From Streptomyces sp. 846.5 (GTDB lineage: Bacteria > Actinomycetota > Actinomycetes > Streptomycetales > Streptomycetaceae), in NCBI RefSeq assembly GCF_004365705.1, contig NZ_SOBN01000001.1, forward strand, positions 558,001 through 622,000: DNA of 64,000 nt, read 5' to 3'. The position numbers were made by a program, and so were the translations under genes. The notes beneath the pieces are model-generated. The model was given only the letters and a program-made list of their open reading frames with translations. It did not search any database and was not told the DNA's origin. Below are positions 10,605-35,382 of this stretch, in pieces. How positions within the stretch are numbered: position 1 is the stretch's first letter; every line of letters begins with the position of its first letter.

Positions 10605-11285
10605 TCAGCCCCTTCCGCTGCCGCGCTCGGCGGCCTCCACGACGTTGGCCAGCAGCATCGCGCGGGTCATCGGGCCGACCCCGCCGGGCATCGGGGCCAG
10701 CCAGCCGGCGACCTCCCGTACCTCGGGGGCCACATCGCCGACGAGCCGTCCGTCGACGCGGGTGATGCCCACGTCGAGCACCGCGGCGCCGGGCTTGACC
10801 AGGTCGGCGGTGACCAGCCCGGCGACGCCCGCCGCTGCGACGACGATATCGGCGCCGCGCAGATGGCGGGCCAGGTCTCGGGTGCCGGTGTGGCACAGGG
10901 TGACGGTGGCGTTCTCGCTGCGGCGGGTCAGCAGCAGCCCGAGCGGCCGGCCCACAGTGACGCCGCGGCCCACGACCACGACCTCGGAGCCGTCCAGCGG
11001 TACCTCGTGGCGTCGCAGCAGTTCGACGATGCCGCGGGGGGTGCAGGCCAGCGCCTCGGCCTTGCCGATCGCGGCATGGGCACGACGGCCCGCCGTGGTG
11101 ACGGTGCGGATCGCGGTGGCGCCGTGCCGGGCCAACTCCTCCAGTACGGCGGCGATGTCGTCACCGCCGTCGAGGAAGACCACGGCCGTGGGTTCGCCGA
11201 GACCGCCGGCGAGGGCCAGCAGTTCCAGGGTGGACGAACGGACCGCACCGTCGGCGTGGTCCGCCAGTACCAGGACGTCTGTCAT
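10605..11285 (-). pseudogene. Fused remnant: ETF alpha N-terminus joined to FolD C-terminus
   Basis: The open frame of 226 codons is a chimera. Residues 1 to about 62 are the start of electron-transfer-flavoprotein alpha ([20 protein letters not shown], then GEPTAVVF and HGATAIRTV). From about residue 74 it is the C-terminal NAD(P) domain of methylene-THF dehydrogenase/cyclohydrolase FolD ([60 protein letters not shown]). The FAD domain of EtfA and the N-terminal catalytic Tyr/Lys half of FolD are absent. One in-frame deletion with its joint near 11066-11102 would explain this. The product should lack both parental activities. It could be translated, as the frame, start and RBS region are intact. 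Confidence 0.85.
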
Positions 11286-11315
11286 GGTTCGGCTCCTTTT
11301 CTCCTTGAGTGCGAT

Positions 11316-12088
11316 CTACTTGTGTGCGGCGAGGAAGTCGGCCAGCTGCGCTGCGCCCTGGCCCTCGTCGGTGACGACGGTTCCGCGCTGCCGCGCCGGG
11401 CGCGGGGTGGTGTCGAGCACCCGGGTGGCGGGGGCCAGGCCGGGGTGCGTGGCATCGAGACCCAGGTCGGAGAGGTCCCAGGTGAGGACGGGCTTCTTCT
11501 TGGCGGCGAGAATGCCCTTGAAGGTGGGGTAGCGCGGCTCGCCGGACCGGTCGGTGACCGACACCACGGCGGGCAAGGCCGTTGAGAGCTGCTCGCTCCC
11601 CCGGTCACCGTCCCGACGGACCGTCAGCAGTGAGTCACTCAGCTCGATTTGGGCGGCGAGCGTGGTGTGGGCCACCCCGAGGCGCTCGGCCAGCATGGCC
11701 GGAATCACGGACCCTGCCCCGTCGGTGGAGGCCATTCCGCACACCACCAGGTCATAGCCGAGGGCCTGCACCGCCTTGGCCAGGACCAGCGAGGTGGTCA
11801 GGTAGTCGGCACCCGCGAGGCACTCGTCGCTGACGTGCACCCCCCCGGTCGCCGCCCATGGCCAGGGGCCTTGCGCAGGGCGTCGGCTGCGTCCTCCGGA
11901 CCCATCGTCAGATGGGTGACCTGGGCGCCGGGATGCTGTGCGGCCAGCAGCAGGGCCTGCTCGACGGCGTACTCGTCGAGCTCGGACAGCCTGCCGTCGC
12001 ACAACTCCCGGTCCAGGAGGCCGTCGTCAGTGAAGCAGCGGTCACCCGCACTGTCGGGCACATGCTTGACCAGGACCACGATGTTCAT
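11316..12088 (-). pseudogene. etfB: Electron transfer flavoprotein beta subunit, frameshifted
   Basis: The ATG at 12088 begins MNIVVLVKHVPDSAGDR and reads correctly to DAADALRKA. It then runs out of frame within a run of four C on the coding strand (plus-strand G run 11864-11867). Removing one C restores KALAMGGDRGVHVSDECLAG and the complete remainder (YDLVVCGMASTDG, PAMLAERLGVAHTT, FKGILAAKKKP) to the stop at 11316. The corrected length, about 257 residues, is normal for EtfB. ETF would accept electrons from dimethylglycine dehydrogenase. A sequencing or assembly error in the homopolymer is the alternative, but the lesions on both sides make true decay credible. Confidence 0.85.
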
Positions 12089-12106
12089 CAGCTGCTCCTA
12101 TGGGTT

Positions 12107-12340
12107 TCAGGTGAAGACGACGGTGCGGTGCCCGTTGAGCAGCACCCGGTGCTCGGCGTGCCACTGGACCGCACGGGCCAGCGCTCCGGCCTCCAAGTCA
12201 CGGCCGAGAGCGGCCAGTTGCTCAGGGGTCAGCCCGTGGTCGACCCGGGCGTAGGCCTGCTCGATGATCGGGCCCTCGTCCAGGTCGGCGGTGACGTAGT
12301 GCGCGGTGGCGCCGACGACCTTGACGCCGCGGGCGTGCGC
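12107..12340 (-). pseudogene. purU: Formyltetrahydrofolate deformylase, C-terminal fragment
   Basis: Seventy-seven codons plus stop encode the end of PurU: AHARGVKVVGATAHYVTADL, DEGPIIEQAYARVDHGLTPE, then GALARAVQWHAEHRVLLNG. About 210 N-terminal residues (ACT domain and the first half of the formyl-transferase fold) are missing. It follows, in the same frame, the head of a dimethylglycine-dehydrogenase gene, separated only by the TAG at 12341-12343. PurU would release formate from formyl-THF made from demethylation carbon. The fragment has no start signal of its own. Confidence 0.87.
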
Positions 12341-12778
12341 CTAGTAGAGCGAGCCGACCACGCCGTCCGGGTTGAGCAGCGGGAACAGCTCGGCGGTGGA
12401 GTCGGGGCCGAGCAGCTGGGTGCGGATGCCGTGGCCGCGCGACACGGAGGCCTGGCGGCGCAGTTCCTCCCAGCGGTCGGCCCTGGTGGCGAGGTGGATG
12501 GTGCCGGTGCGCTCGTAGCCGGTGGACAGACCGGTGTCGGCCTCCAGGGTGCGGAACACCTCCAGGCTGCGCTGGACGATCTCGCGGGTGCCGTAGGTCG
12601 GGCGGGCCTGGGTGACCAGGCCGGCGGCGTGCCAGGTCGTGCCCGAGGTCAGCTGCTTGCGTTCGAGGACGACCACGTCGGTCCAGCCCCGCTTGGCGAG
12701 GTGATAGGCGGTGCTGCAGCCGATGACGCCGCCACCGACGATCACCACCTGGGCGCGGGTCGGAAGGGTTCGGTCCAC
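12341..12778 (-). pseudogene. Dimethylglycine/sarcosine dehydrogenase-like FAD enzyme, N-terminal fragment
   Basis: The GTG at 12778 (RBS GGAGA) opens a frame of 145 codons that ends at TAG 12341-12343. It contains the FAD motif VVIVGGGVIGCSTAYHLAKR, then VVVLERKQLTSGTTWHAAG and LFPLLNPDGVVGSLY, characteristic of DMGDH/SDH proteins of about 800-850 residues. Only about 17 percent remains. The intact enzyme would have demethylated dimethylglycine with ETF as acceptor. The cut falls in the middle of a conserved stretch, and purU sequence follows in the same frame, showing a deletion of several kilobases. Confidence 0.87.
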
Positions 12779-13021
12779 CTGGGGGTCTCCTTGGTACGGA
12801 CGGACTGGGTCCGTGGGGTGGTGCGGGACGGGGGTGCCGGGACAGCGGCACCGGAGCACCCCCGGCCGGTACGAGTCTGGGCGCGGCGGGGGGAGGGCGG
12901 GTACTGGCCTGGCTCGACAAGCGGACGGCTCGTCTTGTGCGCGTGGATGAACGAGCGACGGAGCCGGGGCAGCGCAGGGCAAAGCACCCCGCCGGGCGGG
13001 GTCGGCGGGGTAACGGAGGTA

Positions 13022-13660
13022 CTACGGCTGCCCGGCGGGCGGGCGGAACGGCAGCGGCGCGGTCAGACCCAGCTCGCGGCCGATCAGCTCCCCTACGGCG
13101 AGCTGACTGGCTGTCAGCGCCTCGGGCGTGCCCAGCAGCATGGCCTGCAGACCGAAGCCGTCCAGCAGGGCGAGGATCCGGGTGACGGTCGCGTCCGGGT
13201 CCGGACAGGCGAACTCGCCGGCCTTCACCCCGTCCGCGACCACCGCGGTGAACTCCTCGCGCAGCTTGCCGTAGAGGCTCTCCACGGTGCTGCGCAGGCT
13301 GGGGTCACGCACCGCGTGCAGCCACAGCTCCATCCACAGCAGCCACTCCTCGCGCAGCCCGGTGTCGGCGGGCAGCGAGTAGGTGATCAGGTCGGCCAGC
13401 CGCTCGGTGATCCCGGCCCGGGCGCCGGGGGTGCCGCTGAGGCGCAGCACTCCGGCCCGGTCGTAGGCGTGCACCAGGGCGGCGTCCAGCAGGTCGGCCT
13501 TGGTGGCGAAGTGGTAGTGGACCAGGGCGGTCGAGACCTCGGCGTCGCGCGCGATGTCGCGGATCTTCGCGCCCTCCAGCCCGTTGCGGGCGATGTGGGA
13601 GCAGGCGGCTTCGATGATCCTCGCCCGGGCGCCGGTGGTGGTTTCGCTGTCGCTCTTCAT
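13022..13660 (-). CDS. TetR-family regulator of the Rieske oxygenase locus
   Basis: 212 residues. The N-terminal HTH is AKIRDIARDAEVSTALVHYH followed by FATKADLLDAALVHAYDRAG. The rest is a ligand domain with no specific signature. Its start overlaps the Rieske oxygenase stop by 4 bp, so the two are co-transcribed. The palindromes at 14826-14859 upstream of the oxygenase are its likely operator. It probably senses a methylated amine or demethylation product. The gap 12779-13021 to the next remnant downstream holds only the RBS and leader of that remnant. Confidence 0.87.
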   Translation of the reverse strand: MKSDSETTTGARARIIEAACSHIARNGLEGAKIRDIARDAEVSTALVHYHFATKADLLDAALVHAYDRAGVLRLSGTPGARAGITERLADLITYSLPADTGLREEWLLWMELWLHAVRDPSLRSTVESLYGKLREEFTAVVADGVKAGEFACPDPDATVTRILALLDGFGLQAMLLGTPEALTASQLAVGELIGRELGLTAPLPFRPPAGQP

Positions 13661-14802
13661 GTCCGGGAGACATCATGCCCGAGCAGACCGGTGTCTGCCA
13701 GCGACTCCCGCAGCCGGTCGGCGAACCAGCCGACGGCCACCTCGCGGCTGGAGAGCGGCCCGAACTCGAAGCCGGGATTGGCGCTGCCGCGCTGCACCCG
13801 GACCACCACGCCCTCGTCCTCCCCGGTGACCAGGTTGTTGATGGCGATGTTCAGTCGCTGCACGACCTTGGTGCGCAGCCCGGAGCCGGCCGCGCGGTAC
13901 TGCGACATGCAGATGTGGCTGAGGTTCGGGGACTCGGGCACGATCCGCCACACATTGACCTGGTCGGGGTACAGGTCGAGCATCGTGTTGGGGTAGATCA
14001 GGGCGTAGCGCCAGACCCGGGCGTCCTCCTCGGACAGGCCCGGCATCGGGCGCACCAGCTTCTGGTAGGCGCGCTCCACCCGGTTGCCGGAGGGCTCGTC
14101 GCGCAGCGGGGCCTCGAAGAAGGTGAAGCCGGGGTGGGGCGTCGCGGTGTACTTCTGGTACTGGTAGAGCCTGGTCAGCCCGGGGTGGGCGGTGGGGACG
14201 TGGTAGCCCTCCAGGTAGTTGTCGATCAGCACCTTCCAGTTGGAGCCCTGGTCCCACTTGGGGTCCCAGGCGTGGACGCCGAGGCCGGGGCCGAACTGCT
14301 CCAGCGGACCCTTCAGATAACGCCCCGCCAGCTCCTCCAGCCCGGCCAGCTGCTCGCCGAGCGGGGTCGCCGCCAGGTCCAGGTTGACGAAGACCAGACC
14401 CATCAGGGTGTCCACCTGGATCTTGGGTAGCCCCAGCCCGGCGCGGTCCAGGCAGTCGAAGCTGCGGGCCTCGGGCGCGGCCAGGAACGAGCCGTCGTAG
14501 CGGTAGGTCCAGCCGTGGTACGGGCAGCGGATGCCCTTGGTCTCGAAGGCGCCGCGCCCGGTGCCCAGCACCGCGCCGCGGTGCCGGCAGGCGTTGCGGA
14601 TGCCATTCAGCTCGCCCTCCTGGCCGCGGACCACCATCACCTCGTAGCGGCCGACCTTCTGGGCGATGTAGCTGCCCGGGTTCGGCAGATCGCTGACATG
14701 GCCGACGACCTGCCAGGTCCGTTCGAAGACGGCTTCCTGCTCGGCGTCGAAGGCGGCCTGGTCGTGGTACAGCCGGGCCGGCAGCAGTCGGGTCTCGCTC
14801 AT
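13657..14802 (-). CDS. Rieske non-haem iron oxygenase alpha subunit (glycine betaine monooxygenase GbcA-like)
   Basis: 381 residues. The Rieske [2Fe-2S] ligands are Cys72 and His74 (ACRHRGAVLG), then Cys93 and His96 (RCPYHGW). The mononuclear iron site is in IDNYLEGYHVPTAH (His201, His206, with Asp194 bridging). The fold and length fit the choline/glycine betaine/carnitine-type monooxygenases, which remove one methyl as formaldehyde. The local set of sarcosine oxidase and dimethylglycine dehydrogenase remnant supports glycine betaine as substrate. The likely reductase partners are encoded divergently (15256-16743). Stachydrine-type or carnitine substrates cannot be excluded. Confidence 0.85.
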   Translation of the reverse strand: MSETRLLPARLYHDQAAFDAEQEAVFERTWQVVGHVSDLPNPGSYIAQKVGRYEVMVVRGQEGELNGIRNACRHRGAVLGTGRGAFETKGIRCPYHGWTYRYDGSFLAAPEARSFDCLDRAGLGLPKIQVDTLMGLVFVNLDLAATPLGEQLAGLEELAGRYLKGPLEQFGPGLGVHAWDPKWDQGSNWKVLIDNYLEGYHVPTAHPGLTRLYQYQKYTATPHPGFTFFEAPLRDEPSGNRVERAYQKLVRPMPGLSEEDARVWRYALIYPNTMLDLYPDQVNVWRIVPESPNLSHICMSQYRAAGSGLRTKVVQRLNIAINNLVTGEDEGVVVRVQRGSANPGFEFGPLSSREVAVGWFADRLRESLADTGLLGHDVSRT

Positions 14803-14825
14803 CCGGGACTCCTCGAAATTGGGGG

Positions 14826-14859
14826 GCTGACTTTCAAGTCAGCCTGACTCTAGAATCAG
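14826..14859. promoter_or_regulatory. Tandem palindromes between divergent oxygenase and reductase operons
   Basis: GCTGACTT-TC-AAGTCAGC (14826-14843) is a perfect 8-bp-arm palindrome. It abuts a second near-palindrome, CTGACTCTAGAATCAG (14844-14859). The pair fills the gap between the minus-strand Rieske gene (start 14802) and the plus-strand gene at 14864, so one bound protein could control both. The TetR protein encoded at 13022-13660 is the obvious candidate. No binding data are available. Confidence 0.7.
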
Positions 14860-14863
14860 CGGC

Positions 14864-15259
14864 ATGAGACGTCAACGACTCCGCTGGCTCGGTTTGACCG
14901 CCGAGCCGGAACGCGACCTCCCCCATACACTCGCTGTGCTGCAGGCACGCGGAACGCCCAGCGGGGAGGCGGTACGGGAGCAGCGCCGGCTGGCCGAGCG
15001 TTCCGTCCTGCACGGCACCGAGCGGAGCTGGCTGCGCTATCTGGACGACGCTGCGCTCCAGGTCCCGGCGGCTCCCCCCGCCGACCCGGTGGTGCGCGCC
15101 GCGGCCGTCGTGGTCGCCGAAGTCGTCCTGAACCACCACCGACTGCTCGCCGGGTTCCCCGGCCCCGCCTACGACGACGCCGCCCTGGAAAGACGCCGCA
15201 TGCGCGCCTTCCTCGCGGAAGTCCATGCGGAAGACCGTGCCCAAGGAGGCGCCACATGA
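14864..15259 (+). CDS. Small protein of unknown function coupled to the NuoF-like gene
   Basis: 131 residues, Arg/Ala/Leu rich, with no Cys, no membrane helix and no signal peptide. I recognise no domain. The middle (RAAAVVVAEVVLNHHRLLAG) is predicted helical. Its ATG lies only 5 bp after the second palindrome, and its stop overlaps the NuoF-like start (ATGA), so it is the first gene of the electron-transfer operon. It may be an assembly or docking partner of the oxygenase system (inference from position only). A NuoE-type subunit is excluded by the absence of cysteines. Confidence 0.65.
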   Translation: MRRQRLRWLGLTAEPERDLPHTLAVLQARGTPSGEAVREQRRLAERSVLHGTERSWLRYLDDAALQVPAAPPADPVVRAAAVVVAEVVLNHHRLLAGFPGPAYDDAALERRRMRAFLAEVHAEDRAQGGAT

Positions 15260-16527
15260 TCACCCAGTCCGCCGTACGGATCCGCCCGCTCCCCGGAGCC
15301 GCGACCCGGCTGCTCCTGGACCAGCGCCAGGAGTGGGAGGGGCTCGCCGACTACCTCCCCCGGCACGGCTACGCCCGCTCCCCCGACTCCGCCGAGATCC
15401 GGGCCCTGGTGGACGCTGCCGACCTGCGCGGACGCGGCGGAGCCGGCTTCCCGACCGCCGTGAAGATCGCCGCCGTCGCCGACTCCCCGAACCCGGTGCG
15501 CTGCGTGGTCGCCAACGGCGAGGAGGGCGAGCCGGCCAGCGTGAAGGACCGCTACCTGCTGCGACACCGCCCGCACCTGGTCCTGGACGGTCTGATGCAC
15601 GCCGCCCGCGCGGTCCGGGCCGACCGGGCCTACGTCTACGTCTCCGACGCGGCGTCAGCCCGCAGCGTGCGCACCGCACTTGCCGAGCGGCCGCCCGCGG
15701 TCCCGGTGCATGTCGTCACCGTCCCCGCCGGATATGTGGCCGGCGAGTCGTCGGCCGTGGTGCGCGCCATCAACGGCGGGCCCGCCAAGCCGACGGCCAA
15801 GCCGCCGCACCCCTACGAGCAGGGCGTGGGCGGGGTCCCGACCCTGGTGCAGAACGTGGAGACCCTCGCCCACCTGGCCCTGCTGGTCAGCCACGGGGTG
15901 GACGCGCACCGCGCGCACGGCACCCCCGAGTGCACCGGCACCTTCCTGCTCACCCTGTCCCCGCCGCGGGGACCCGCGGTGCTCACCGAGACGGCCTACG
16001 GCACGGTCCTGGGCGACGTCGTCGCCGAGCACCTGGGCCCGGTCGACGTCACCGGGGTGCTGATGGGCGGCTTCGCCGGCGGCATCCTCGGCCCCGAGGC
16101 GCTGGGCCTGCCGCTCACCCACGACGCCGTCCTGCACGCCGGCGGCCTGCTGGGCTGCGGCGCGGTGGCCCTGCTCGGCCCGGACGACTGCCCGATCTCC
16201 GCCGCCGCGGACATCGCCGCCTACTTCGACCGGGAGAACGCCGCCCAGTGCGGCCCCTGCATCAAGGGCACCGACGCCATGGCCGCGGACCTGGCCGCGC
16301 TCGCCTCCGCCCGAGCCGGAACGGCCGAGGTCGACCGCCTGGAACGCCTCTCCACCAACCTGCGCCGCCGCGGCGCCTGCGGCCTGCTCGACGCCGCCTG
16401 CGCCGCGACCGCCTCCCTGCTCAGCCGGCACCGCCCCCTGGTCGACGCCCACCTGGACGCAGCCTGCCCCGACTGCGCCGCCAACCCTCCATGCAGCGAC
16501 GACACCCGTTTCCGCATCACCTGGTAA
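15256..16527 (+). CDS. NuoF-like NADH:FMN iron-sulfur flavoprotein
   Basis: 423 residues. The NADH/FMN motifs of the complex I 51-kDa family are present: LRGRGGAGFPTAVKI (about 57-71) and NGEEGEPASVKDRYLLRHRP (about 88-107). An SLBB-like section follows, then GVGGVPTLVQNVETLAHLAL. The cluster region reads QCGPCIKGT with a later RRGACGL. Compared with NuoF's CxxCxxC plus Cys, the first Cys seems replaced. An extra ACPDC lies near the C-terminus. It probably oxidises NADH and passes electrons to the ferredoxin encoded 21 bp downstream. Its position opposite the Rieske oxygenase suggests it serves as that enzyme's reductase. Confidence 0.8.
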   Translation: MITQSAVRIRPLPGAATRLLLDQRQEWEGLADYLPRHGYARSPDSAEIRALVDAADLRGRGGAGFPTAVKIAAVADSPNPVRCVVANGEEGEPASVKDRYLLRHRPHLVLDGLMHAARAVRADRAYVYVSDAASARSVRTALAERPPAVPVHVVTVPAGYVAGESSAVVRAINGGPAKPTAKPPHPYEQGVGGVPTLVQNVETLAHLALLVSHGVDAHRAHGTPECTGTFLLTLSPPRGPAVLTETAYGTVLGDVVAEHLGPVDVTGVLMGGFAGGILGPEALGLPLTHDAVLHAGGLLGCGAVALLGPDDCPISAAADIAAYFDRENAAQCGPCIKGTDAMAADLAALASARAGTAEVDRLERLSTNLRRRGACGLLDAACAATASLLSRHRPLVDAHLDAACPDCAANPPCSDDTRFRITW

Positions 16528-16548
16528 CACCGGAAAGAGGAACCACCC

Positions 16549-16743
16549 ATGAAGATCGACGTCGACGGAAACAAGTGCCAGGGCTACGGCCTGTGCGCCG
16601 AGGTCGCCTCCGCCCTGTTCGTCCTGGACGACTTCGGCTTCGCCGCCGCCTCGGGCGACGGCACCGTCCCCCCGGAGCAGGTCCAGGCCGCCCTGCAAGC
16701 CATCAACGAATGCCCCGCCTCAGCAGTACGCCGACTCGACTGA
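16549..16743 (+). CDS. [3Fe-4S]-type small ferredoxin
   Basis: 64 residues. Three cysteines are arranged as Cys10-x5-Cys16 ... Cys55-Pro (KCQGYGLCAEVA, NECPASAV), the pattern of single-cluster 3Fe-4S ferredoxins usually paired with P450s in actinomycetes. It follows the NuoF-like gene by 21 bp with a GAGGAA RBS. No P450 is encoded nearby, so its partner is probably the Rieske oxygenase (inference). Confidence 0.88.
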   Translation: MKIDVDGNKCQGYGLCAEVASALFVLDDFGFAAASGDGTVPPEQVQAALQAINECPASAVRRLD

Positions 16744-16874: not shown

Positions 16875-18617
16875 TCAGTCCTTGATCTCGCAGATCACGG
16901 CCCCGCTAGTCACCGTGGCTCCGATCGCCGCCGAGAGCCCGACGATCGTCCCGGCCTTGTGGGCGTTCAGCGGCTGTTCCATCTTCATCGCTTCGAGGAC
17001 GACCACGAGGTCGCCCTCGTTGACGGCCTGCCCCTCCTCCACGTTGATCTTGACGATGGTGCCCTGCATCGGTGAGGCCAGGGTGTCCCCCGAGGCCGCC
17101 GAGCCGGCCTTGGAGGTGGTGGCGCGCCGCTTGGACTTGGCGGCCGGCCGGGCCGAGCTGGTGGCCAGGTTGGCCGGCAGGGAGACCTCGATGCGCTTGC
17201 CGCCGACCTCGACCACCACGGTCTCGCGGGTGTCCGGCTCGTCCTCCTCCCCGCTGCCGCCGGCGAAGGCCGCGATGGTGTTGACGAAGTCGGTCTCGAT
17301 CCAGCGGGTGTAGATGGTGAAGGGCTCGCTGGCAAACGCCGGGTCGGTGACCACCGCGCGGTGGAACGGGATGGCGGTGGCCATGCCCTCGATATTGAAC
17401 TCGGCCAGCGCGCGGGCGGCGCGCTGCAGGGCCTGGGTGCGGGTGGCGCCGGTGACGATCAGCTTGGCCAGCAGCGAGTCCCAGGCCGGCCCGATCACAC
17501 TGCCGGACTCCACCCCGGAGTCCAGCCGCACCCCAGGGCCCGAAGGGGGCTGGAACACGGTCACGGTGCCCGGGGCGGGCAGGAAGCCGCGGCCGGGGTC
17601 CTCGCCGTTGATGCGGAACTCGAAGGAGTGGCCGCGCACCGCCGGGTCGCCGTAGCCCAGAGCCTCCCCGTCGGCGATGCGGAACTGCTCGCGGACCAGG
17701 TCGATGCCGGTGACCTCCTCGGTGACCGGGTGCTCCACCTGCAGGCGGGTGTTGACCTCCAGGAAACTGATGGTGCCATCGGCCGCGACCAGGAACTCGC
17801 AGGTGCCCGCCCCCACGTAGCCGGCCTCGCGCAGGATGGCCTTGGAGGCGGCGTACAGCTGGGCGTTCTGGGCGGCGGTGAGGAACGGCGCGGGGGCCTC
17901 CTCGACCAGTTTCTGGTGGCGGCGCTGCAGCGAGCAGTCGCGGGTGGAGACCACCACGACGTTGCCGTGGGTGTCGGCCAGGCACTGGGTCTCCACGTGC
18001 CGGGGCCGGTCCAGGTAGCGCTCGACGAAGCACTCGCCGCGCCCGAACGCGGCCACGGCCTCGCGGACCGCGGAGTCGTACAGCTCGGGGATCTCGTCCA
18101 GGGTGCGGGCGACCTTCAGGCCGCGGCCGCCGCCGCCGAAGGCCGCCTTGATGGCGATGGGCAGCCCGTGCTCGCGCGCGAACGCGACCACCTCGTCGGG
18201 TCCGGTGACCGGGTCGGCGGTGCCCGCGACCAGGGGGGCGCCGGCGCGCTGGGCGATGTGACGGGCCGCCACCTTGTCGCCCAGGTCGCGGATGGCCTGC
18301 GGCGGGGGGCCGATCCAGGTCAGTCCGGCGTCGATGACGGCCTGGGCGAACTCGGCGTTCTCGGACAGGAAGCCGTAGCCGGGGTGGACCGCGTCCGCGC
18401 CGGAGTCGGCCGCGGCCTTGAGGACCTTGGCGATGTCCAGGTAACTGGTCGCCGGGGTGTCCCCGCCGAGGGCGAAGGCCTCGTCGGCCGCGCGGACATG
18501 CAGCGCGTCCCGGTCCGGCTCGGCGTAAACAGCGACCGCGGCGATACCCGCGTCACGACAGGCCCGGGCGACGCGGACTGCGATCTCTCCGCGGTTGGCG
18601 ATGAGCACCTTGCGCAC
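16875..18617 (-). CDS. accA: Acyl-CoA carboxylase alpha subunit (biotin carboxylase + BCCP)
   Basis: 580 residues. The biotin carboxylase domain begins [20 protein letters not shown] and has the ATP-grasp loop [13 protein letters not shown] and the catalytic [20 protein letters not shown]. The C-terminal biotinyl domain carries the biotin lysine in [11 protein letters not shown]. It makes carboxybiotin for the beta subunit. The GTG at 18617 was chosen because the family always begins [12 protein letters not shown] and a GGGAG RBS precedes it. It is the last gene of the polyketide operon and should supply malonyl-CoA. It may duplicate a housekeeping copy elsewhere. Confidence 0.93.
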
Positions 18618-18645
18618 AATGGCTCCCGGATGGTCGACGCACGGT

Positions 18646-18894
18646 CTACAGGAAGAACTGCTGCAGTGGTCTCCATCCCGCAGGGGACCGCGACGTCCAG
18701 GCGGCGTCGGGACGGTGCCGACCTCCCGCACGACACCAGGACGGCAGGCTGTCCGAGTTGGCGAAGGAGACCGTGTCCCCGCTCACGCCGCTGAACAGGA
18801 CCGCTGTGAGCGCGGCCAGTTCCTCGGCCACGAGCGAGCCTCTGACGACGCGCACCAGGGTGTCCGGGACGGTGGGTTCGGTGAAGGTGGTCAT
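18646..18894 (-). CDS. accE: Acyl-CoA carboxylase epsilon subunit
   Basis: 82 residues. The N-terminal half shows the epsilon signature [20 protein letters not shown]. The tail after [20 protein letters not shown] is variable, as usual. These small proteins bind and activate the beta subunit of actinobacterial acyl-CoA carboxylases. It sits 17 bp after accB and 28 bp before accA, an arrangement that supports a three-subunit enzyme made as a unit. Confidence 0.88.
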
Positions 18895-18911
18895 GGCGGG
18901 TGCCTCCGGGG

Positions 18912-20458
<1,547 letters not shown>

Positions 20459-20462
<4 letters not shown>

Positions 20463-21460
20463 CTCCGGCCCCCGACCTGGCTGGTGTCGACCAGATGGGT
20501 GATGAGCTCCGCAGCCGCAGCCGCGCCGTAGGCGCCACGCAACCGTGTGCTCAGGTTCTCGGCGTCGAGGCGGTAGTCCTGCGGACCGACGACTTCCAGG
20601 GCGGCCGACGCGAGCGCACATCCGAGCCTGGCAGCGGGTACAGCGGACAGTCCCCAGCTGACAGCAGCGAGGAAGCCGGCCCGGAAGGCGTCCCCGAGTC
20701 CGGTGGGCTCCACCGGTTCTGTCGCGGGCACGGCCGGGACGAGCTCGTCCGGTCTCCCGGAGCGCTGCACCAGTACCCCCTCCGCTCCCCGTGTGGTGAT
20801 CCAGGTGCCGACGACGGAGAGGATCTCCTCCCGGCTGCGTCCTGTGTGCTTGCACAGCAGCGTCGCCTCGTACTCGTTGGTGAACAGCAGTGCTGCGCCG
20901 TCAATCAGTTGGCGCAGGTCGGCCCCCTCCAGGTTGGCGATCTGCTGCCCGGGGTCGGCGGCGAAGTCCAGGCCGAGTTCGCGGCATTCCCGGGTGTGAC
21001 GGAGCATCGCCTGCGGGTCGTTGGGTGAGACCACGACCAGATCGAGTCCACCGGGCAGGGAGGCCACAAGTGTCAGGTCGATGTCCCGGGCCTCGCTCAT
21101 GGCGCCGGCGTAGAAGGAGGCGATCTGGTTCCGGTCCGCGTCCGTCGTGCAGACGAAGCGGGCTGTATGACGGGAGGCGCTGACGCGTACATGTGTCGTG
21201 TCGACGCCGTGGCCCTGGAGCCGGACGCGGTAGTCCTCGAAGTCCGGGCCGACGGCGCCGACGAGCAAGGGGGTCAGGCCCAGGCGGCCCAGGCCGAGGG
21301 CGATGTTCGCGGCCACGCCCCCGCGCCGGATCTCCAGGGTGTCGACCAGGAAGGACAGCGAGACCCGGTCCAGTTGTTCGGCCAGCAACTGTTCGGAGAA
21401 CCGGCCGGGAAAGACCATCAGATGGTCGGTGGCGATGGAACCAGTCGCGGCAATGCGCAT
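20459..21460 (-). CDS. adoK: Adenosine kinase (PfkB family)
   Basis: 333 residues. The N-terminus MRIAATGSIATDHLMVFPGR and the segments FSEQLLAEQLDRVSLSFLVD and FYAGAMSEARDIDL follow closely the mycobacterial adenosine kinase (Rv2202c) family as I know it. The catalytic signature is PTGLGDAFRAGF, with Leu where Ala or Val is usual. It should convert adenosine to AMP in the cytosol. It is translationally coupled to accB and lies 43 bp after an O-methyltransferase. Three SAM-dependent methyltransferases in the cluster generate S-adenosylhomocysteine, whose hydrolysis yields adenosine, so this kinase may relieve product inhibition (inference). Confidence 0.88.
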
Positions 21461-21503
21461 GATGCTCGCTCCTTGAACCGCAGGTCGGTGGGAGGGGCGG
21501 GAA

Positions 21504-22586
21504 TCAGGCCCCGTGGTCGGCCACCCGCGCCTGGATCAGCGCTTCGGCCGAGGGGGATCCGGGGCCGACCTCGGGCATCTGTACGTCGGTTGTGCTGAAG
21601 CCGGCCGCCTCCAGGAGCGCGGTGAGCTCCGCGAGGGTGCGCTCGCGCCCCCCGAGGACGACGAGCATCTGCAGGTCGGAGAACTTTCCGGGGTGGAACC
21701 CGGCAACCTGGGGAATGGCCTTGTCGATGAGGAGCAGCCTGGAGTGCGGCCCCATGGCCGCGCGGACCGTGTTCAGGATCCGCAGGGCGTCGTCGTCATC
21801 CCAGTCGTGGATGACCCGGGACAGGATGTAGCAGTCTCCCCCCGTGGGGACGGACTCGAAGAAGCTGCCGCCGAGGACGTCGGCCCGGTCGAGAACGTTC
21901 CGCGCGGCGAGGAGGTCACGGGCCTGGGCCACGCCCGCGGGCGTGTCCAGGAGGATTCCCCTGAGGTGCTGGTGTCGCTCCAGCAGGTGCGCCAGGAGAC
22001 CGCCCATGCCTCCGCCGACGTCCACCACCGTCCGGTCGCCGCTGAAGTCGTGGTGGGTGAGTACGTGTGCGGGTGCTCCGGTGCCGGCCATGGCGTTGAA
22101 CGCGGCGCTGGGAGCCGCCTCCTGCGCGAGGAAGGCGAAGTGCGACATCCCGTAGACATGGTCGAAGGCCGCCTCTCCGGTGCGCACGGTGTGCATCACC
22201 TGGGCCCAGGCGCTGAAGCTCTCCTCCCCGTTGACGATGATGAAGTAGCGCAGGCCCCCCGGGGCGTCGGAACGAAGGGCCGCGCCGACGGGCGTGGTGG
22301 CGAAGGTGCGCCCGGGAAGCTCCCGCAGTACTCCCAGTGCCTCCAGCGCCCGGCAGAACCGGTAGAGGGCTCCGGGATGCGCGTTGGTCTCCTGCGCCAG
22401 GTCCTCGCTGGTCCGCGGGCCGTGGGCGAGCGCGTCGGCGAGGCCGAGTTTGGCGGCGACGTACAGGCTCTGGAACGCCCAGGGCGCCGTGGTGACCACC
22501 AGTTCGCTGAGTGCGGCGGTGTCGGGGGGCGAGGAGGGAGCAGCCTCGGGTGCGACTGCCGGTGCGGATGTGGTGGGGCTGTTCAT
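21504..22586 (-). CDS. SAM-dependent O-methyltransferase 1 (polyketide tailoring)
   Basis: 360 residues. An N-terminal dimerisation/winged-helix domain (SLYVAAKLGLADALAHGPRT, YRFCRALEALGVL) is followed by the SAM-binding loop TVVDVGGGMGGLLAHLL. The catalytic His region is SRVIHDWDDDDALRIL. This is the TcmO/DmpM-type family that methylates phenolic hydroxyls on aromatic polyketides. The ATG at 22586 overlaps the stop of the upstream small gene (ATGA), which fixes the start. It is in the main biosynthetic operon, unlike the other two methyltransferases. Confidence 0.9.
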   Translation of the reverse strand: MNSPTTSAPAVAPEAAPSSPPDTAALSELVVTTAPWAFQSLYVAAKLGLADALAHGPRTSEDLAQETNAHPGALYRFCRALEALGVLRELPGRTFATTPVGAALRSDAPGGLRYFIIVNGEESFSAWAQVMHTVRTGEAAFDHVYGMSHFAFLAQEAAPSAAFNAMAGTGAPAHVLTHHDFSGDRTVVDVGGGMGGLLAHLLERHQHLRGILLDTPAGVAQARDLLAARNVLDRADVLGGSFFESVPTGGDCYILSRVIHDWDDDDALRILNTVRAAMGPHSRLLLIDKAIPQVAGFHPGKFSDLQMLVVLGGRERTLAELTALLEAAGFSTTDVQMPEVGPGSPSAEALIQARVADHGA

Positions 22587-22798
22587 GACTGGCCTTCCTC
22601 GGGAACAGGCTCCGGGGCCGCGGAATGGGGTATGGCGAGGCCGTACCACCAGCCCAGGTGGATGAGGCCGTGGGTCACGGCATGCCCGATGCGTCGCAGG
22701 AATCCGCTCTGCGGAGCGGGGCTGAGGTAGTACCAGGGCGAATCCCCCGACGGGGGCGGGCCCATGGGGTGACGGGTGTCCCGCAGGTGCCTAGGCAT
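22583..22798 (-). CDS. Small protein of unknown function between cyclase and methyltransferase
   Basis: 71 residues if it starts at the ATG 22798 (overlapping the cyclase stop by 8 bp), or 60 residues from 22765. The core PWYYLSPAPQSGFLRRIGHA, then GLIHLGWWYGLAIPHSAAP, is rich in Trp/Tyr and weakly amphipathic. There is no Cys and no recognisable domain. It is coupled on both sides by overlaps, so it is almost certainly translated. Its presence inside the polyketide operon suggests a pathway-specific role, perhaps as a binding or cyclisation helper, which is only inference. Confidence 0.65.
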   Translation of the reverse strand: MPRHLRDTRHPMGPPPSGDSPWYYLSPAPQSGFLRRIGHAVTHGLIHLGWWYGLAIPHSAAPEPVPEEGQS

Positions 22799-23120
22799 TG
22801 CGTTCCCAGCGGTAGAACTCCTGTGCCATGGCGTCCTTGGGCTCGCGCCAGGTCGTCGGGTCGTAGGCCGCGACGAAGGGACGCAGTTCCTCGCTGATGC
22901 GCCGGAACTCCGGGTGGTGCCGCGCGTCGGTGACCGCGGACTCCACCGGCGCCTCCCCTTCGACCAGGTGCAGGTAGACCTGGCCGAACTGGAAGAGGCT
23001 GCGCGACCGGACGCCGATGGTCTGCGGCAGGTCCGTGGTCCGGTCGGAGTTCGCGAAGATCTCCGCGATGTCGGGCGCGGCGTCCGGCAGCATCCGGGCG
23101 ACGATGAGGCTTCGGTACAT
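22791..23120 (-). CDS. TcmI-family polyketide cyclase
   Basis: 109 residues of the TcmI/WhiE-ORFVII ferredoxin-like fold: MYRSLIVARMLPDAAPDIAE, IGVRSRSLFQFGQVYLHLVE, ARHHPEFRRISEELRPFVAA and the C-terminal KDAMAQEFYRWE. TcmI catalyses the last ring closure in tetracenomycin biosynthesis, and relatives act in spore pigment and pentangular polyphenol pathways. It lies 22 bp after the hydroxylase gene in the operon. Together with the monodomain aromatase and the cupin it forms a three-cyclase set for a polycyclic skeleton. Confidence 0.92.
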   Translation of the reverse strand: MYRSLIVARMLPDAAPDIAEIFANSDRTTDLPQTIGVRSRSLFQFGQVYLHLVEGEAPVESAVTDARHHPEFRRISEELRPFVAAYDPTTWREPKDAMAQEFYRWERNA

Positions 23121-23142
23121 CCGTCTCTCCTGTGGTCGTGTG

Positions 23143-24273
23143 TCAGATGAGGAAGTCGGGGACGTCCTGGCCGAGTAGGACGGATCCGGCCCGGCGCTGT
23201 GCCTCCAGGCCGAAGGCGATGTGCTGCGCGGCTGTCTGGACGTCGCGGAAGAACCGCTGGAGCGGCGCGCGGTCGTAGAGCTGGCTCGCCCCGCAGGCCC
23301 GCATCGCCGAGTCCGCCACGTCGATCGTCGTACGCATGGCGTGTTGCACCGAAGCGGTCAGCAGCGCCCGGGACCCGGGCGACGCGATGCCGTCCTGCGT
23401 CTCGGCCCAGACCTGTCGCACCGCGTCGTGGACAAAGGACCGGGCCGAACGGACGGCCGCCTCGCAGCGCACGATCTCGGCCTGAATGATCGGGGTCTGC
23501 GCGAGCAGGGTCCGTTCGGTGTTCCGCTTGACCAGGACGATGTCGCGGTACTCGTCGACGATGCGCCGCGCCGTGCCCAGGGGGAAGCCGGCCATGGCGA
23601 CCAGCAGATAGCTCATGTAGGGCAGGCGGTAGAGCGGACCGTCCTCCTGTGCGGGCCCGAACGGGTCGAACGTGAAGCGCCGGGGGACGACGACGTCGGT
23701 GGCCTCGATGTCGTGGCTGCCGGTGCCCCGCAGGCCGGCGACGTGCCAGGTGTCGTGTATCCGGACGTCGGCGCTGGGCAGCAGCGCGAACCGGGGCCCC
23801 CCGGCGCCTTGCCGGAACCCCGCCACCAGGTAGTCGGCGACCGAGCATCCGCTGGTGTACGGCCAGCGGCCGGTCAGTCGGATCGCGTCGTCCCCGCTGG
23901 GCACCGCGCTTCCGTGCGGTGCCATCGACCCGGTGATCAGGGGTGCGGGCCGGGTGCCCACGACCTCCTCGGCCGCGTCCCGGTCCAGCCAGGCCAGGTA
24001 GCCGGCGCCCTGGCCGATCAGGACGGTCCAGCCGGTGGCGGCGTCGCCTCGGCTCAGCTCCTCCACCACCCCGATCAGGGTCAGCGGGTCGGCTTCCAGG
24101 CCGCCGAGGGAGGCCGGGGCCATGAGGCCGAACAGGCCCGCGTCACGCAGTTCCGCGACCAGGTCGGCGGGGACGGTGCGGCCGGATTCCACCTCCAGCG
24201 CCCGGCCCGGCAGGTCGGCCGCTATCCGGACGGCTGATTCGAGCGGGGAGCTCTGTGTCGTGGTGACGGACAT
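23143..24273 (-). CDS. Acyl-CoA-dehydrogenase-fold flavin monooxygenase A
   Basis: 376 residues with the ACAD fold but no acyl-CoA signature. It resembles two-component FMNH2-dependent hydroxylases (HsaA, ActVA-ORF5 type). Visible segments are RTVPADLVAELRDAGLFGLM, SRGDAATGWTVLIG, TGRWPYTSGCSVADYL, DTWHVAGLRGTGSHDIEATD and the C-terminal ASQLYDRAPLQRFFRDVQ. Such enzymes hydroxylate aromatic polyketides or phenols and need reduced flavin from a reductase. It is paralogous to the adjacent gene (24333-25529). No dedicated flavin reductase of the HpaC type is visible. The WrbA-like gene at 34526 is one possible source. Confidence 0.83.
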   Translation of the reverse strand: MSVTTTQSSPLESAVRIAADLPGRALEVESGRTVPADLVAELRDAGLFGLMAPASLGGLEADPLTLIGVVEELSRGDAATGWTVLIGQGAGYLAWLDRDAAEEVVGTRPAPLITGSMAPHGSAVPSGDDAIRLTGRWPYTSGCSVADYLVAGFRQGAGGPRFALLPSADVRIHDTWHVAGLRGTGSHDIEATDVVVPRRFTFDPFGPAQEDGPLYRLPYMSYLLVAMAGFPLGTARRIVDEYRDIVLVKRNTERTLLAQTPIIQAEIVRCEAAVRSARSFVHDAVRQVWAETQDGIASPGSRALLTASVQHAMRTTIDVADSAMRACGASQLYDRAPLQRFFRDVQTAAQHIAFGLEAQRRAGSVLLGQDVPDFLI

Positions 24274-24332
24274 GACGCCCTCTCTCTGCTTCGTTGCTGC
24301 GGGGAAGTTGGCGGTGCAGGACGGGCGGCGAC

Positions 24333-26347
<2,015 letters not shown>

Positions 26348-27568
26348 TCAGGTGGGTCGCCGGACCAGAAGCGCGGAGTTGCCGCCGGAGATCCCGCGGG
26401 CGAGGACCAGGGCCGTCTGTGCGTCCGTCGCCCGGGGCGCCGCGGTGACCAGGTCGATGTCGAAGCAGGACCCGGTGGCGTACGGAGTGGGCGGGACAAG
26501 CCCGTCGCGCAGGGCCAGCACCGCCAGTGAGACGTCCAGCGCCGCGGCTCCCGCGTACGCGCGGCCGAACCCGGCCTTGGGTACGGTCACCGGGATCCCG
26601 CGCAGCCCGGAACCGAAGACCTCTTCCAGCGCTGCCACTTCCGCCCGGTCGGCAGCCGGGACGCCGAGCCCGTCGGCGAACACCATGCCGACCTCCTCGG
26701 GCGGGCACTGTGCCTCGTCGAGGGCGGCCTGGATCGCCTTCGCCAGGCCCTGTGCGCTCTCCTCGTGCCTGAGCATGCCGGTGTACGTCGCTCCGTGGCC
26801 GGCGATCCTGGCCTGCGGCGCCGCTCCTCGGCGGAGTGCGGCCTGCTCCTCCTCGAGCACAAGCACGGCACCGCCCTCCGCGGGGACGTATCCGCAGGCG
26901 TCCGCACCGAACGGGAGGTACGCGTCGGCGGGGTCCTCCTTCGAGCTCAGCAGTCCGTGGCCGTACTGGCAGGCCATGGCGAACGGGGCGAACGGGGCCT
27001 CTGCCCCGCCTGCCAGCATCGCCGTCGTCCCGTAACGGATGTCCCGGGCGGCGTGGGCCAGCGCGTCCAGCCCCCCTGCCTCGTCGGCGACCAGGACCCC
27101 GCAGGGGCCCTTCAGGCCATGACGGATCGACAGCTGGCCGGTGCTGGCGGCGTAGAACCAGGCGATGGACTGGTAGGGGCCGACGTGGCTGGGCCCACGG
27201 CTCCACAGCAGTTCGATCTCGCGCTGCCCGAATTCCACTCCCCCGGCGGCGCTCGCCGTGACCGCGCCGAAGGAGTAGGGCGGTAGGTCCTGCGGACGCA
27301 GCGCCGCGTCCTGCAGCGCCAGATCGGCCGCGGCCAGCGCGAACTGGGTGAACCTGTCGGTCTGTACGGCGACCCTGGGATCGATCACCTCGGTCGGCCG
27401 GAATCCGGGGACCTCCCCGGCGACCTTCAGCGGGTACGCCCCGGTCGGGTAGCGGGTGAGCGGACCGAGGGCGCCCCTGCCCGCGAGCACCGCCGTCCAC
27501 AGTTCCCCGGTCCCGATGCCGCTGGGCGCGATCACGCCGATGCCGGTGACGACGGTGTGCCGGCTCAT
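26348..27568 (-). CDS. Type II PKS chain length factor (KS beta)
   Basis: 406 residues with the ketosynthase fold but no active-site Cys. The segment [20 protein letters not shown] aligns with the CLF region where Gln normally replaces Cys; here it is Glu163. Other CLF landmarks are [40 protein letters not shown] and [20 protein letters not shown]. It forms a heterodimer with the KS and sets chain length. The start overlaps the KS stop (ATGA). Order and relatives suggest a long chain (whiE-type, about C24), but length cannot be read from sequence by eye. Confidence 0.93.
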
Positions 27569-28827
27569 CGCCTGCTCCCTTCGCGGGTGAGCACGACGGC
27601 GGACTGGAATCCGCCGAAGCCGCTTCCCACCGACAGCACATGGTCCAGCCGCGCCTGCCGCGCGTGGAGCGGGACGTAGTCCAGGTCGCACTCGGGGTCG
27701 GGGATCTCGAGATTCGCGGTCGGCGGGATGGTCTCGTTCTCGATCGCCAGCACGGAGGCGGCGAGTTCGATCGCACCGATGGCGCCGAGAGAGTGTCCGA
27801 CCATCGACTTGATGGAACTGACACTGGTCGCGTAGGCGTGGGAGCCCAGCGCCCGCTTGATCGCCGCGGTCTCGTGGCGGTCGTTCTGCTTGGTTCCGGA
27901 ACCGTGGGCGTTGACGTAGTCGATGTCGTACGGATCCACCCGGGCATGGTGCAGGGCCTGTGTGGCCGCCTCCGCCATCTCCAGCCCCTCCCTGGTCAGC
28001 CCGGTCATGTGATAGGCGTTTCCGCGGGTCGCGAAGCCGCTGACCTCGCAGCGGATCCGCGCGCCCCGGCGGCGCGCGTGGTCGGCCTCCTCCAGGACGA
28101 GGACGGCGGCGCCCTCCCCCATGACGAAGCCGTCACGGGTGAGGTCGAAGGGCCGGGAGGCGTGGGCCGGATCGTCGTTCCGGGTGGACGTCGCCCGGAT
28201 GGCGTCGAAGCAGGCCACCGTGATCGGCGAGATGGGGGACTCGGCCGCCCCGGTGATCACCACGTCGGCCTTTCCCTCCTCGATCAGTCGCAGGCCGTAC
28301 CCGACCGCGTCCAGCCCCGAGGTACAGCCGGTGGAGACGGTGTGCACCACGCCGCGGGCCCCTGCCAGGTCGGCGATCTCCCCGGCCAGCGGCGCCGGGG
28401 AGAAGACCCGGAAGAGGTCGCGTGAGACGCTGCGGTGGTCGACCGCCCATGATCTGCCCCGGTCGCTGGCCGCCACGTACTCGGTCTCCAGCCGGGTGGT
28501 ACCGCCCACCGCGCTGCCCATGGAGACCGCCGTGCGCCAGGACCCGCTCTCGTCCGGGTCGAGTTCCGCGTCGGCCAGCGCCTCCGCCGCGGCGACCACG
28601 CCGAACTGCACATACCGGTCCATGCGGGCGATCTCGGCCGGCTGCAGAAAGCTGTCGGCGTCGAACTGGCACTCGGCGGCGATACGGGACCGGAATCCGG
28701 TCGCGTCGAACAGGGTGATGGCGCGGGTGGCCGTACGGCCGGAGGTGAGCAGCTCCCAGAACGCCTTGGTGCCCGTCCCGCCGGGTGCCACCACACCGAC
28801 TCCGGTCACCACCGCGCGCCGGGTCAC
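27565..28827 (-). CDS. Type II PKS ketosynthase (KS alpha)
   Basis: 420 residues. The active-site Cys168 is in [20 protein letters not shown]. The catalytic histidines are in [14 protein letters not shown] and [15 protein letters not shown]. It begins [20 protein letters not shown] from a GTG that overlaps the cupin stop (GTGA). With the CLF it condenses malonyl-ACP units into a poly-beta-ketone. No KS III or dedicated acyltransferase is nearby, so priming by acetate (malonyl decarboxylation) is the simple inference. Confidence 0.96.
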
Positions 28828-29213
28828 GCCGGCTCCTCGGTGTCCACATGCCCGAGCTCGGGCCGCGGGGCCAGCGGACCCAGGTGGAAGACGATGCGCG
28901 CCTCCTGCTCCCCGGTGTTGCGGACCCGGTGGCGGACGTTCACCGGCACCAGGAGTCCCTGGCCGGCGCGGGCCAGGTGCGGCCGACCGTCCAGGTCGAC
29001 CGTGACCTCACCACTCGTCAGGTACAGGAACTCCTCGGAGTAGGGGTGGTAGTGCTCGACCACCCGTTCTCCGGGCTGCAGGATGGCGACCCCCATGAAC
29101 CCGGAGGTGCTGCCGACGGTGGCCGGGCTCAACAGGGTGCGCAGATCGCCACCGCGTTTGCGGTTGGCGGGGACCTCATCGATGTCGACGACGCGGACGG
29201 GCTTGCTGGTCAC
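28824..29213 (-). CDS. Cupin polyketide cyclase (WhiE-ORFII type)
   Basis: 129 residues from the GTG at 29213, chosen because a TGGAG RBS lies 6 bp upstream and the conserved start is [20 protein letters not shown]. An upstream GTG at 29264 overlapping the previous stop would add 17 residues. The cupin metal motif is [20 protein letters not shown] with [12 protein letters not shown]. Relatives in spore-pigment and pentangular clusters assist ring cyclisation. Its position immediately before KS matches whiE. Confidence 0.88.
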
Positions 29214-29260
29214 GTGGGCTCCAGATCGCGAAGGGGTGTTGACGGTGCCGTGTCCCGCGT

Positions 29261-30259
29261 TCACACGGGCGCCCGGACGGCGGCCGGGAGCTTGGATCCG
29301 AACAGCTTTCGGGCGTTGTCCTCACGTACGGCCTGCCGCTGCGGCTCCGCGACGTCGAGGCCGTCGACGAGCTGCAGCCCCTCCTGAACCGCCGTTCCCG
29401 GCAACGGCGGGGAGTCACTGCCGTAGAGCACCTTGTCGGGGCCGAAGACCTGCAGAGCGAGTTCCAGCGCAGCCGCGCTGGGCGTGGCCGTGTCCACCCA
29501 CAACCGGCGGAGGTAGCTGCTCGGCGGCGCCTTGAGCGCCGGGGTGCGGTGACCGGCGGGGCCGCTTCCCGGCCGGCCCGGCCCCGCACCGGCCCAGTGC
29601 TCGGGCGACCAGGCCCGGTCCAGTTTCTCGCCGAGCAGGGCCAGCGCCCCTCCGGCGCCCTGGCCGATGAGCCGCAGGTCGGGGTGGTGGTCGAACCAGC
29701 CGCCCAGGATGCAGCAGGCGAGGCCGATGGTGACGTCGCTGAACCTGCCGAGCTGCTCCACCGCCATCAGGTCCGCGAGTCCTGTCCCGGCTGCCGGAGC
29801 CGCCGGAGCATGCATGAGCACCGGAGCGGCGGTCTCTGCGGCCAGAGCGAAGAAGTCCTTGGCGTCAGGGTGGTCCAGATAGCGTCCCGCGACGCTGGTA
29901 TTCGCGATCAGGCCGACGAACTCGGCCTGATCGAGCCGTCGGGCTGCCGCGGCCAGGTGGGCGTCCCCTCCGAACGGGTTGACGTAGACGTAGGCGCGCA
30001 GCCGCTGGGGGTGGCGTGCGACCAGTTCACTCGTCCAGTCGTGGAACCGGGCGAGGTCGTCCTCGCTCTGCGCGTAGTTGTCCACACCGGGCAGCGGGAC
30101 CATCGCCCCGGCTCCCACCGGGCTCCCGATCACGGTCAGCTCCACCCCGGCGGCGAGCTTGGCCTCGATCATGCCTTCGGCGTCGCCGAGCGACCGCGGC
30201 ATGGGGAATCTGCGCAGCGACTCCGGCGGGCTGAGATGACCGTGCACGTCGATGGTCAC
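29261..30259 (-). CDS. Amidohydrolase-2 / ACMSD-like metal hydrolase or decarboxylase
   Basis: 332 residues. The N-terminal DVHGHLSP gives the HxH metal site, [11 protein letters not shown] a further His, and VLYGSDSPP the C-terminal Asp. This fits the ACMSD/OHCU-type TIM-barrel family that often decarboxylates aromatic acids. In a polyketide operon it could remove the terminal carboxyl left after cyclisation or open a lactone; both are inferences. An insertion rich in Gly/Pro (about residues 221-245) is unusual. The GTG start overlaps the upstream stop. Confidence 0.8.
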
Positions 30260-33073: not shown

Positions 33074-33417
33074 CACAGCGCCCCGGCGTGCTTGCGGGTT
33101 TCCCTGCGCACGGTGAAGCGCCGCGACTCGCGTGCGGTGGTCTCGGCCACCAGCGGACCGGCGAGCTCGTGGTGCCCGGCACCCGATTCCCAGGCGAGGA
33201 AGTCCGCGCCGGAACGCCACTCGCTGGTGATCACCCATTCGCGGGGATCGGTGAGCGACTGGCACACCTGGTCCACCAGGTGCCCCTCGACGGTGGCGAC
33301 GTCGGCACAGATGCGGTCGTAGGCGGCCAGGAACCGTTCCCGGGCCTCCTCCTCGACCGTGAGGAAGAACATCACCCGCAGGTGGTCCGTCTCGACGGTG
33401 GGTTCCTGGATGCTCAT
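33073..33417 (-). CDS. Antibiotic biosynthesis (ABM) monooxygenase-like protein
   Basis: 114 residues of the cofactor-independent ABM ferredoxin-like fold: HLRVMFFLTVEEEARERFLA, VATVEGHLVDQVCQSLTD, EWVITSEWRSGADFLAWESG. Relatives oxidise anthrones to quinones in tetracenomycin- and pradimicin-type pathways. It overlaps the oxidoreductase upstream (ATGA) and the FAD monooxygenase downstream (TGATG). Quinone formation is the likely role, inferred from family. Confidence 0.85.
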   Translation of the reverse strand: MSIQEPTVETDHLRVMFFLTVEEEARERFLAAYDRICADVATVEGHLVDQVCQSLTDPREWVITSEWRSGADFLAWESGAGHHELAGPLVAETTARESRRFTVRRETRKHAGAL

Positions 33418-35363: not shown

Positions 35364-35382
35364 GATTCCGGGGAGTCCCCTG

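Follow-up and report, generated by a model that had tools for sequence, protein, structure and literature searches.

The native redox partners of many Rieske oxygenases are still unidentified, which limits their study (PMC12445004). Service of a Rieske oxygenase by a [3Fe-4S] ferredoxin is already known from type V systems (Kweon et al. 2008, PMC2358900), and CXXYXXC is among the motif types of a set of ferredoxins which, where examined, contained [3Fe-4S] (PMC6237146). A Cys-X-X-Cys pair beside the iron site is a feature of some group V Rieske oxygenases (PMC10952381). For the Aib system the published reductase is AibF, a flavin mononucleotide (FMN)/[2Fe-2S] ferredoxin:NAD+ oxidoreductase (PMC7782822, PMC10811679). 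No description of a NuoF-type oxygenase reductase was found in the open-access literature, which is weak evidence of absence. The locus considered here lies in a stretch of 64,000 nucleotides from Streptomyces sp. 846.5 (contig NZ_SOBN01000001.1, positions 558,001 to 622,000), referred to below as the window. Its block of genes for a Rieske oxygenase, a flavoprotein resembling NuoF of complex I, a single-cluster ferredoxin, a protein of 131 amino acids (aa) and a TetR-family regulator probably encodes, at a rough probability of 0.78, a self-regulated three-component (perhaps four-component) oxygenase in which electrons would pass from NADH via the NuoF-like protein and a [3Fe-4S]-type ferredoxin to the Rieske enzyme. 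The unusual part of this system is the NuoF-like reductase, not the [3Fe-4S]-type ferredoxin.

A divergent cassette and its conservation

The Rieske and TetR genes form one arm, which diverges from an operon for the 131-aa protein, the NuoF-like protein and the ferredoxin across two palindromes.

13022..13660, minus strand: TetR-family regulator (Pfam TetR_N and TetR_C_6, BetI-type C-terminal), with a homologue in the clusters of relatives
13657..14802, minus strand: Rieske non-heme iron oxygenase alpha subunit, 381 aa (Pfam PF00355 and PF00848)
14825..14844, no strand: operator 1, probable TetR site, perfect palindrome GGCTGACTTTCAAGTCAGCC (palindrome analysis)
14844..14859, no strand: operator 2, probable, near-palindrome CTGACTCTAGAATCAG with one mismatch (palindrome analysis)
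14864..15259, plus strand: conserved 131-aa protein (searches of Pfam and NCBIfam gave no family)
15256..16527, plus strand: NuoF-like flavoprotein, 423 aa (Pfam Complex1_51K and NADH_4Fe-4S)
16549..16743, plus strand: single-cluster ferredoxin, 64 aa (Pfam Fer4_15/Fer4_13)

A preliminary description of this DNA had located the Rieske, NuoF-like and ferredoxin genes, and both coordinates and Pfam domains agree with it; the TetR gene and the conserved 131-aa gene were left out. It had also supposed that the two arms share operators. The two palindromes, directly adjacent inside a 61-bp divergent gap with the second ending 4 bp ahead of the ATG at 14864, bear this out, as do similar CTGA..TCAG palindromes (CTGACTAATTGGTTAGTCAG-type), usually two, in the divergent gaps of the 15 intact relatives. 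The regulator is likely to bind the operators in the gap and to have both arms under its control. Its gene lies 3′ of the Rieske gene and overlaps it by 4 bp; the 3′ end of the 131-aa gene likewise overlaps the NuoF-like start by 4 bp, and does so in most relatives. An open reading frame on the opposite strand (14834-15244, minus), preferred by codon bias in one gene call, was rejected since the plus-strand 131-aa protein is conserved in 15 relatives.

The four genes for Rieske enzyme, 131-aa protein, NuoF and ferredoxin stand together in 17/17 Streptomycetaceae loci where a close Rieske homologue was found: the window itself, 15 intact relatives and L183, an assembly with frameshifts. The arrangement thus recurs in 16 other genomes, which is far beyond chance. 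Within the genus, nine genomes have a Rieske match below 1e-70, and the cassette is present in every one. One of these, G070, was a candidate for a genome with the Rieske gene and no NuoF, and was rejected as such: the whole cassette is at its locus, with frameshifts. When approached from the other side, through NuoF, the sample was 150 family genomes and the match threshold below 1e-90. Matches occur in 18 of the 150, window included, and in 15 of the 17 non-window genomes the Rieske gene adjoins NuoF. Of the remaining two, L051 stops close to a contig edge, and in L055 the place of the Rieske gene is taken by a heme oxygenase gene. Pairwise identities across loci are correlated (Spearman 0.82 for Rieske/NuoF, 0.89 for Rieske/131-aa and 0.67 for Rieske/ferredoxin, with no correction for species phylogeny), and shared species history contributes to the Rieske/NuoF value.

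The window cassette is an outlier. Its Rieske protein shares 50% identity with the others, whose average among one another is 77%. The cassettes of relatives are accompanied by a polyamine-type ABC transporter, a flavin amine oxidase, an aldehyde dehydrogenase, a CoA ligase and acyl-CoA dehydrogenases (the names of transporter and aldehyde dehydrogenase come partly from sequence reading). All of these, acyl-CoA dehydrogenases and CoA ligase included, are missing from the window, where oxygenase, NuoF and ferredoxin remain; the closest homologues of that ligase in the strain's own genome are at most 35% identical and unlinked.

The component proteins

In the Rieske enzyme the motifs of both the Rieske cluster and the iron site are complete. 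By motif scan, with roles assigned by analogy with the carnitine monooxygenase CntA, the cluster ligands are C72/H74/C93/H96, the iron site is H201, H206 and D329, and E198 is the bridging residue; bridging Glu and 2-His-1-carboxylate site lie in NYLEGYHVPTAH, the motif aligned to CntA, and GEDEGVVVRVQRG. The closest solved structures are those of CntA (6y9c/6y8j). However, Gly199 and Val202 occupy the positions of CntA Cys206 and Cys209, so that the group V Cys-X-X-Cys beside the iron site is missing. Against the GbcA equivalog NF058607 the protein scores 117.7 bits where the cut-off is 670, with the match confined to residues 7-212. The preliminary description had called the enzyme GbcA-type and framed the locus as a GbcA oxygenase without its GbcB. 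The label is wrong at the family level, given the low score and the missing Cys pair, and the framing is not supported. The enzyme belongs to a different Rieske subfamily, and GbcA identity is ruled out by the score together with a better GbcA/GbcB-like pair elsewhere in the genome (L061:5072-7296; G000:C1 at about 1.136-1.138 Mb, 417.5 and 309.7 bits), about 0.56 Mb from the cassette. Because its scores are below the curated cut-offs, that pair possibly acts on another betaine; it adjoins a flavin oxidoreductase-like gene. The same description was right that a GbcB-type reductase is not present here: one GbcB-like query gave no tblastn match in the window or the cassette loci, and matched only loci picked for FAD_binding_6 and one locus of ferric-reductase type. 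The cassette contains no GR-type reductase, five Reductase_C matches lying elsewhere in the genome (the location of GR-type reductases covered this genome).

The NuoF-like protein exceeds the Pfam cut-offs of PF01512 (119.8 bits) and PF10589 (51.4 bits), and at 199.7 bits stays below the 558.65 cut-off of TIGR01959, the equivalog of true NuoF. Its FMN/NADH region is kept, as judged from alignment columns and PDB comparison. The best PDB match is HydB (7p5h), with chains of NAD-reducing hydrogenase and of complex I subunits also among the nearest. Four N3 cysteines are canonical; at the first of these positions the window protein has Ala329 and the whole aligned family Ala or Ser, while the other three (C332, C335 and C375 here) are kept; C404, near the C-terminus, is invariant in that family. 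The operon lacks a NuoE-like partner gene. No plasmid match to the window protein was found at E<=1e-60.

The ferredoxin motif is CQGYGLC...CP, of the CxxYxxC...CP type, and its Tyr is present in 17/17 aligned cassette ferredoxins. The closest PDB entries are 4id8/4ov1. Motif and nearest PDB chains both fit the ferredoxin of a type V system, and the protein is expected to carry a [3Fe-4S] cluster.

The 131-aa protein is 37-47% identical to 15 relatives. W8, L11-T12-E14-P15-E16, H91 and G97-P99-G100 are invariant in the 16 sequences (WLxLTxEPE and GxPG motifs). Its AlphaFold model is all-helical, with a pLDDT of 85.7, and has no PDB fold match at E<=0.001. This helical protein would be an additional component in the Rieske version of the module.

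NuoF-ferredoxin pairs beside other oxygenases

A neighbourhood survey of NuoF-like/3Fe-4S ferredoxin pairs, which the preliminary description had proposed as a check, found the Rieske cassette conserved and the pair also beside other oxygenases. A search of genome contigs gave at least 80 NuoF loci, mostly from Mycobacteriaceae and Nocardia (L080-L159); this set and the choice of patterns favour mycobacteria, and the counts describe contexts, not frequencies. In 80/80 of the loci listed the ferredoxin gene adjoins NuoF, following it, and in none of the 80 did the one GbcB-like query find such a reductase within 6 kb of NuoF. Among the 69 listed loci with 6 kb of upstream sequence, 67, mostly from mycobacteria, carry two amidohydrolase genes and the gene of a small Rieske ferredoxin, all on the same strand. 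The best matches of these amidohydrolases are AibH1H2 (6m1w/6m2i/8ful) and the 8sm6-8sm9 entries (for the second amidohydrolase the PDB search was made with the 300-residue N-terminal part). Such operons, with an AibH-like pair, small Rieske ferredoxin and NuoF-ferredoxin, are seen for example in L089, L138 and L140, and are candidates for an uncharacterised monooxygenase family widespread in mycobacteria.

The other two of the 69 loci (Microtetraspora) have a heme oxygenase beside the NuoF-ferredoxin pair. Heme oxygenase beside NuoF, each time with a ferredoxin gene, is found at L113:8198-10098 and L125:8036-10161 (Microtetraspora) and at L055:8887-10912 (the Streptomycetaceae-family genome mentioned above). 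Fusion of NuoF to a single-cluster ferredoxin domain (Fer4_15) occurs at L059:7459-8976, which is on contig C3 of the strain's own genome, and at L070:7330-8766. More distant NuoF-ferredoxin pairs neighbour ApbE and ferric-reductase-like genes.

In two unrelated oxygenase families, Rieske and AibH-like, the pair thus occupies the position that an FNR-type reductase has in a known relative. With moderate confidence, then, NuoF-ferredoxin may be a portable actinobacterial NADH electron-donor module for unrelated oxygen-activating enzymes (Rieske, AibH-like dinuclear monooxygenases and heme oxygenases), outside the FNR and GR reductase types, the 131-aa protein being added in the Rieske version.

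Electron donors, substrate and known systems

In the proposed chain NADH would reduce the FMN of the NuoF-like protein, whose Fe-S cluster would hand electrons singly to the CxxYxxC ferredoxin of [3Fe-4S] type. That ferredoxin would in turn reduce the Rieske [2Fe-2S] cluster, from which electrons would reach the mononuclear iron via the bridging Glu198. A TetR repressor at the paired palindromes would govern both divergent arms, and NuoF-ferredoxin would replace the reductases, of FNR or GR type, that known Rieske systems use. Contact between NuoF and ferredoxin finds support in the fusions and the constant adjacency of their genes, and a partnership between ferredoxin and Rieske enzyme in the shared palindromes and co-conservation. 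We infer the direction and rates of electron flow, the cluster types, the specificity of the components and the binding of TetR. The central proposal of the preliminary description was that a Rieske enzyme is served here by an alternative electron-transfer chain; apart from the GbcA framing, this is well supported by comparative genomics, namely by the conserved cassette, the shared operators, the fusions and the occurrence of the module beside other oxygenases.

Several observations weigh against this chain. A more distant member of the phylum (G351, locus L184) has a Rieske homologue of 37% identity alongside the same genes for transporter, ligase and dehydrogenase (an ABC/TetR/Rieske/CoA ligase/acyl-CoA dehydrogenase set), and NuoF-ferredoxin is absent from the locus; that Rieske branch must therefore use another donor. 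The loss of one N3 cysteine makes the state, and the type, of the NuoF-like Fe-S cluster uncertain. The NuoF tree groups the window protein weakly with the NuoFs of heme oxygenase loci (support 91/81, not starred). A topology that unites the window NuoF and its counterparts from the other Rieske cassettes in one clade is not rejected (p-AU 0.09); the tree suggested that the window Rieske gene recruited its NuoF independently, but this is not established. Finally, the six FAD_binding_6 and five Reductase_C matches in the genome could serve the Rieske enzyme in trans.

If an unlinked reductase, GbcB-like or of GR type, did so, NuoF-ferredoxin would serve something else. Redox-partner promiscuity is known for Rieske systems (PMC12445004, PMC2358900), and a GbcB-like FAD/NAD/Fer2 reductase is encoded among these candidates. 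However, the GbcB-like gene adjoins its own GbcA-like oxygenase, and conserved co-localisation, shared palindromes and correlated divergence tie the Rieske gene to NuoF-ferredoxin; service in trans seems quite improbable. The pair could otherwise accept electrons from the acyl-CoA dehydrogenases encoded in the clusters of relatives, in the manner of a replacement for electron-transfer flavoprotein, and regenerate NADH without feeding the Rieske enzyme. In relatives an NDP-forming CoA ligase gene is directly 3′ of NuoF-ferredoxin, followed by one or two acyl-CoA dehydrogenase genes and in some by a 3-hydroxyacyl-CoA dehydrogenase gene. Yet Rieske, NuoF and ferredoxin genes stay together in the window where those genes are missing, no acyl-CoA dehydrogenase is seen among the listed neighbours of the heme oxygenase loci L113 and L125, the NuoF operon begins in the gap it has in common with the Rieske gene, and L184 has dehydrogenase and ligase without NuoF-ferredoxin. 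This role too is very unlikely.

Because the relatives' cassette sits with transporter, amine oxidase, aldehyde dehydrogenase, CoA ligase and acyl-CoA dehydrogenases, catabolism of a nitrogen-containing compound is hinted at, and the best guess for the substrate, by analogy, is a nitrogen-containing, possibly N-alkylated compound. In the window genome the substrate could differ, and could include the polyketide of the neighbouring cluster. That the cassette is a tailoring module of this cluster concerns the substrate and is compatible with the proposed electron chain. Genes for biotin carboxylase, carboxyltransferase, O-methyltransferase, polyketide cyclase and two ketosynthases run rightward from 16.9 kb, and the relatives' catabolic genes are missing here; but the cassette is transcribed separately and convergently, under a TetR and palindromes of its own, and its homologues in relatives lie in a catabolic-looking cluster. 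A tailoring role is on balance unlikely.

The polyketide cluster extends over 16875-36171 and has two ketosynthases, cyclase, O-methyltransferase, carboxylase subunits and an ACMSD-like amidohydrolase. To the left (10605-12982, minus strand) is a decayed N-demethylation operon, for which an assembly error is possible: the N-terminal part of an oxidase (DAO domain) meets a stop, after which comes the C-terminal part of PurU (119 bits against the PurU subfamily); etfB carries a frameshift; and the C-terminal domain of FolD is joined to an N-terminus that looks EtfA-like by eye. A link between these demethylation genes and the cassette was rejected, their homologues being scattered across the genus and the window copies broken.

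If the proposed chain is correct, a complex-I-type subunit would be a class of oxygenase reductase beyond the five-type scheme (PMC2358900), and the NADH-entry unit of complex I and bifurcating enzymes would have been reused for oxygen chemistry. It would also be a candidate partner for orphan Rieske enzymes, mycobacterial AibH-like monooxygenases and actinobacterial heme oxygenases.

Type V three-component Rieske oxygenases (phenanthrene dioxygenase PhdABCD and PhtA; PMC2358900) likewise occur in actinobacteria and combine a Rieske oxygenase with a [3Fe-4S] ferredoxin, the cluster type expected here, but they have a GR-type FAD reductase and alpha-beta oxygenases where this cassette has a NuoF-like candidate reductase and no beta subunit gene is seen. 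With group V (CntA/CntB, GbcA/GbcB and Stc2; PMC10952381) the enzyme shares its nearest solved structure, CntA, and Glu as bridging residue, and differs in lacking the Cys-X-X-Cys by the iron site, in falling far under the GbcA cut-off and in the absence of a CntB/GbcB-type reductase from the cassette. The CXXYXXC(X)nCP motif is common to the window ferredoxin and Fdx3 of M. marinum, one of the P450-partner [3Fe-4S] ferredoxins with a variable motif residue (PMC6237146), though the partners of Fdx3 are a ferredoxin reductase and CYP147G1 and the neighbours here are the NuoF-like protein and the Rieske enzyme. Complex I NuoF/Nqo1 and HydB/HoxF/FdsB have the same FMN/NADH-binding and Fe-S domains, whereas the window protein is stand-alone, with no NuoE-type operon partner and with Ala/Ser for the first N3 Cys. 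The Aib monooxygenase AibH1H2-AibG-AibF and related amidohydrolase-fold oxygenases (PMC7782822, PMC10811679) resemble the AibH-like amidohydrolases and small Rieske ferredoxin of the mycobacterial operons, in which NuoF-ferredoxin stands in the place that AibF has in the published system.

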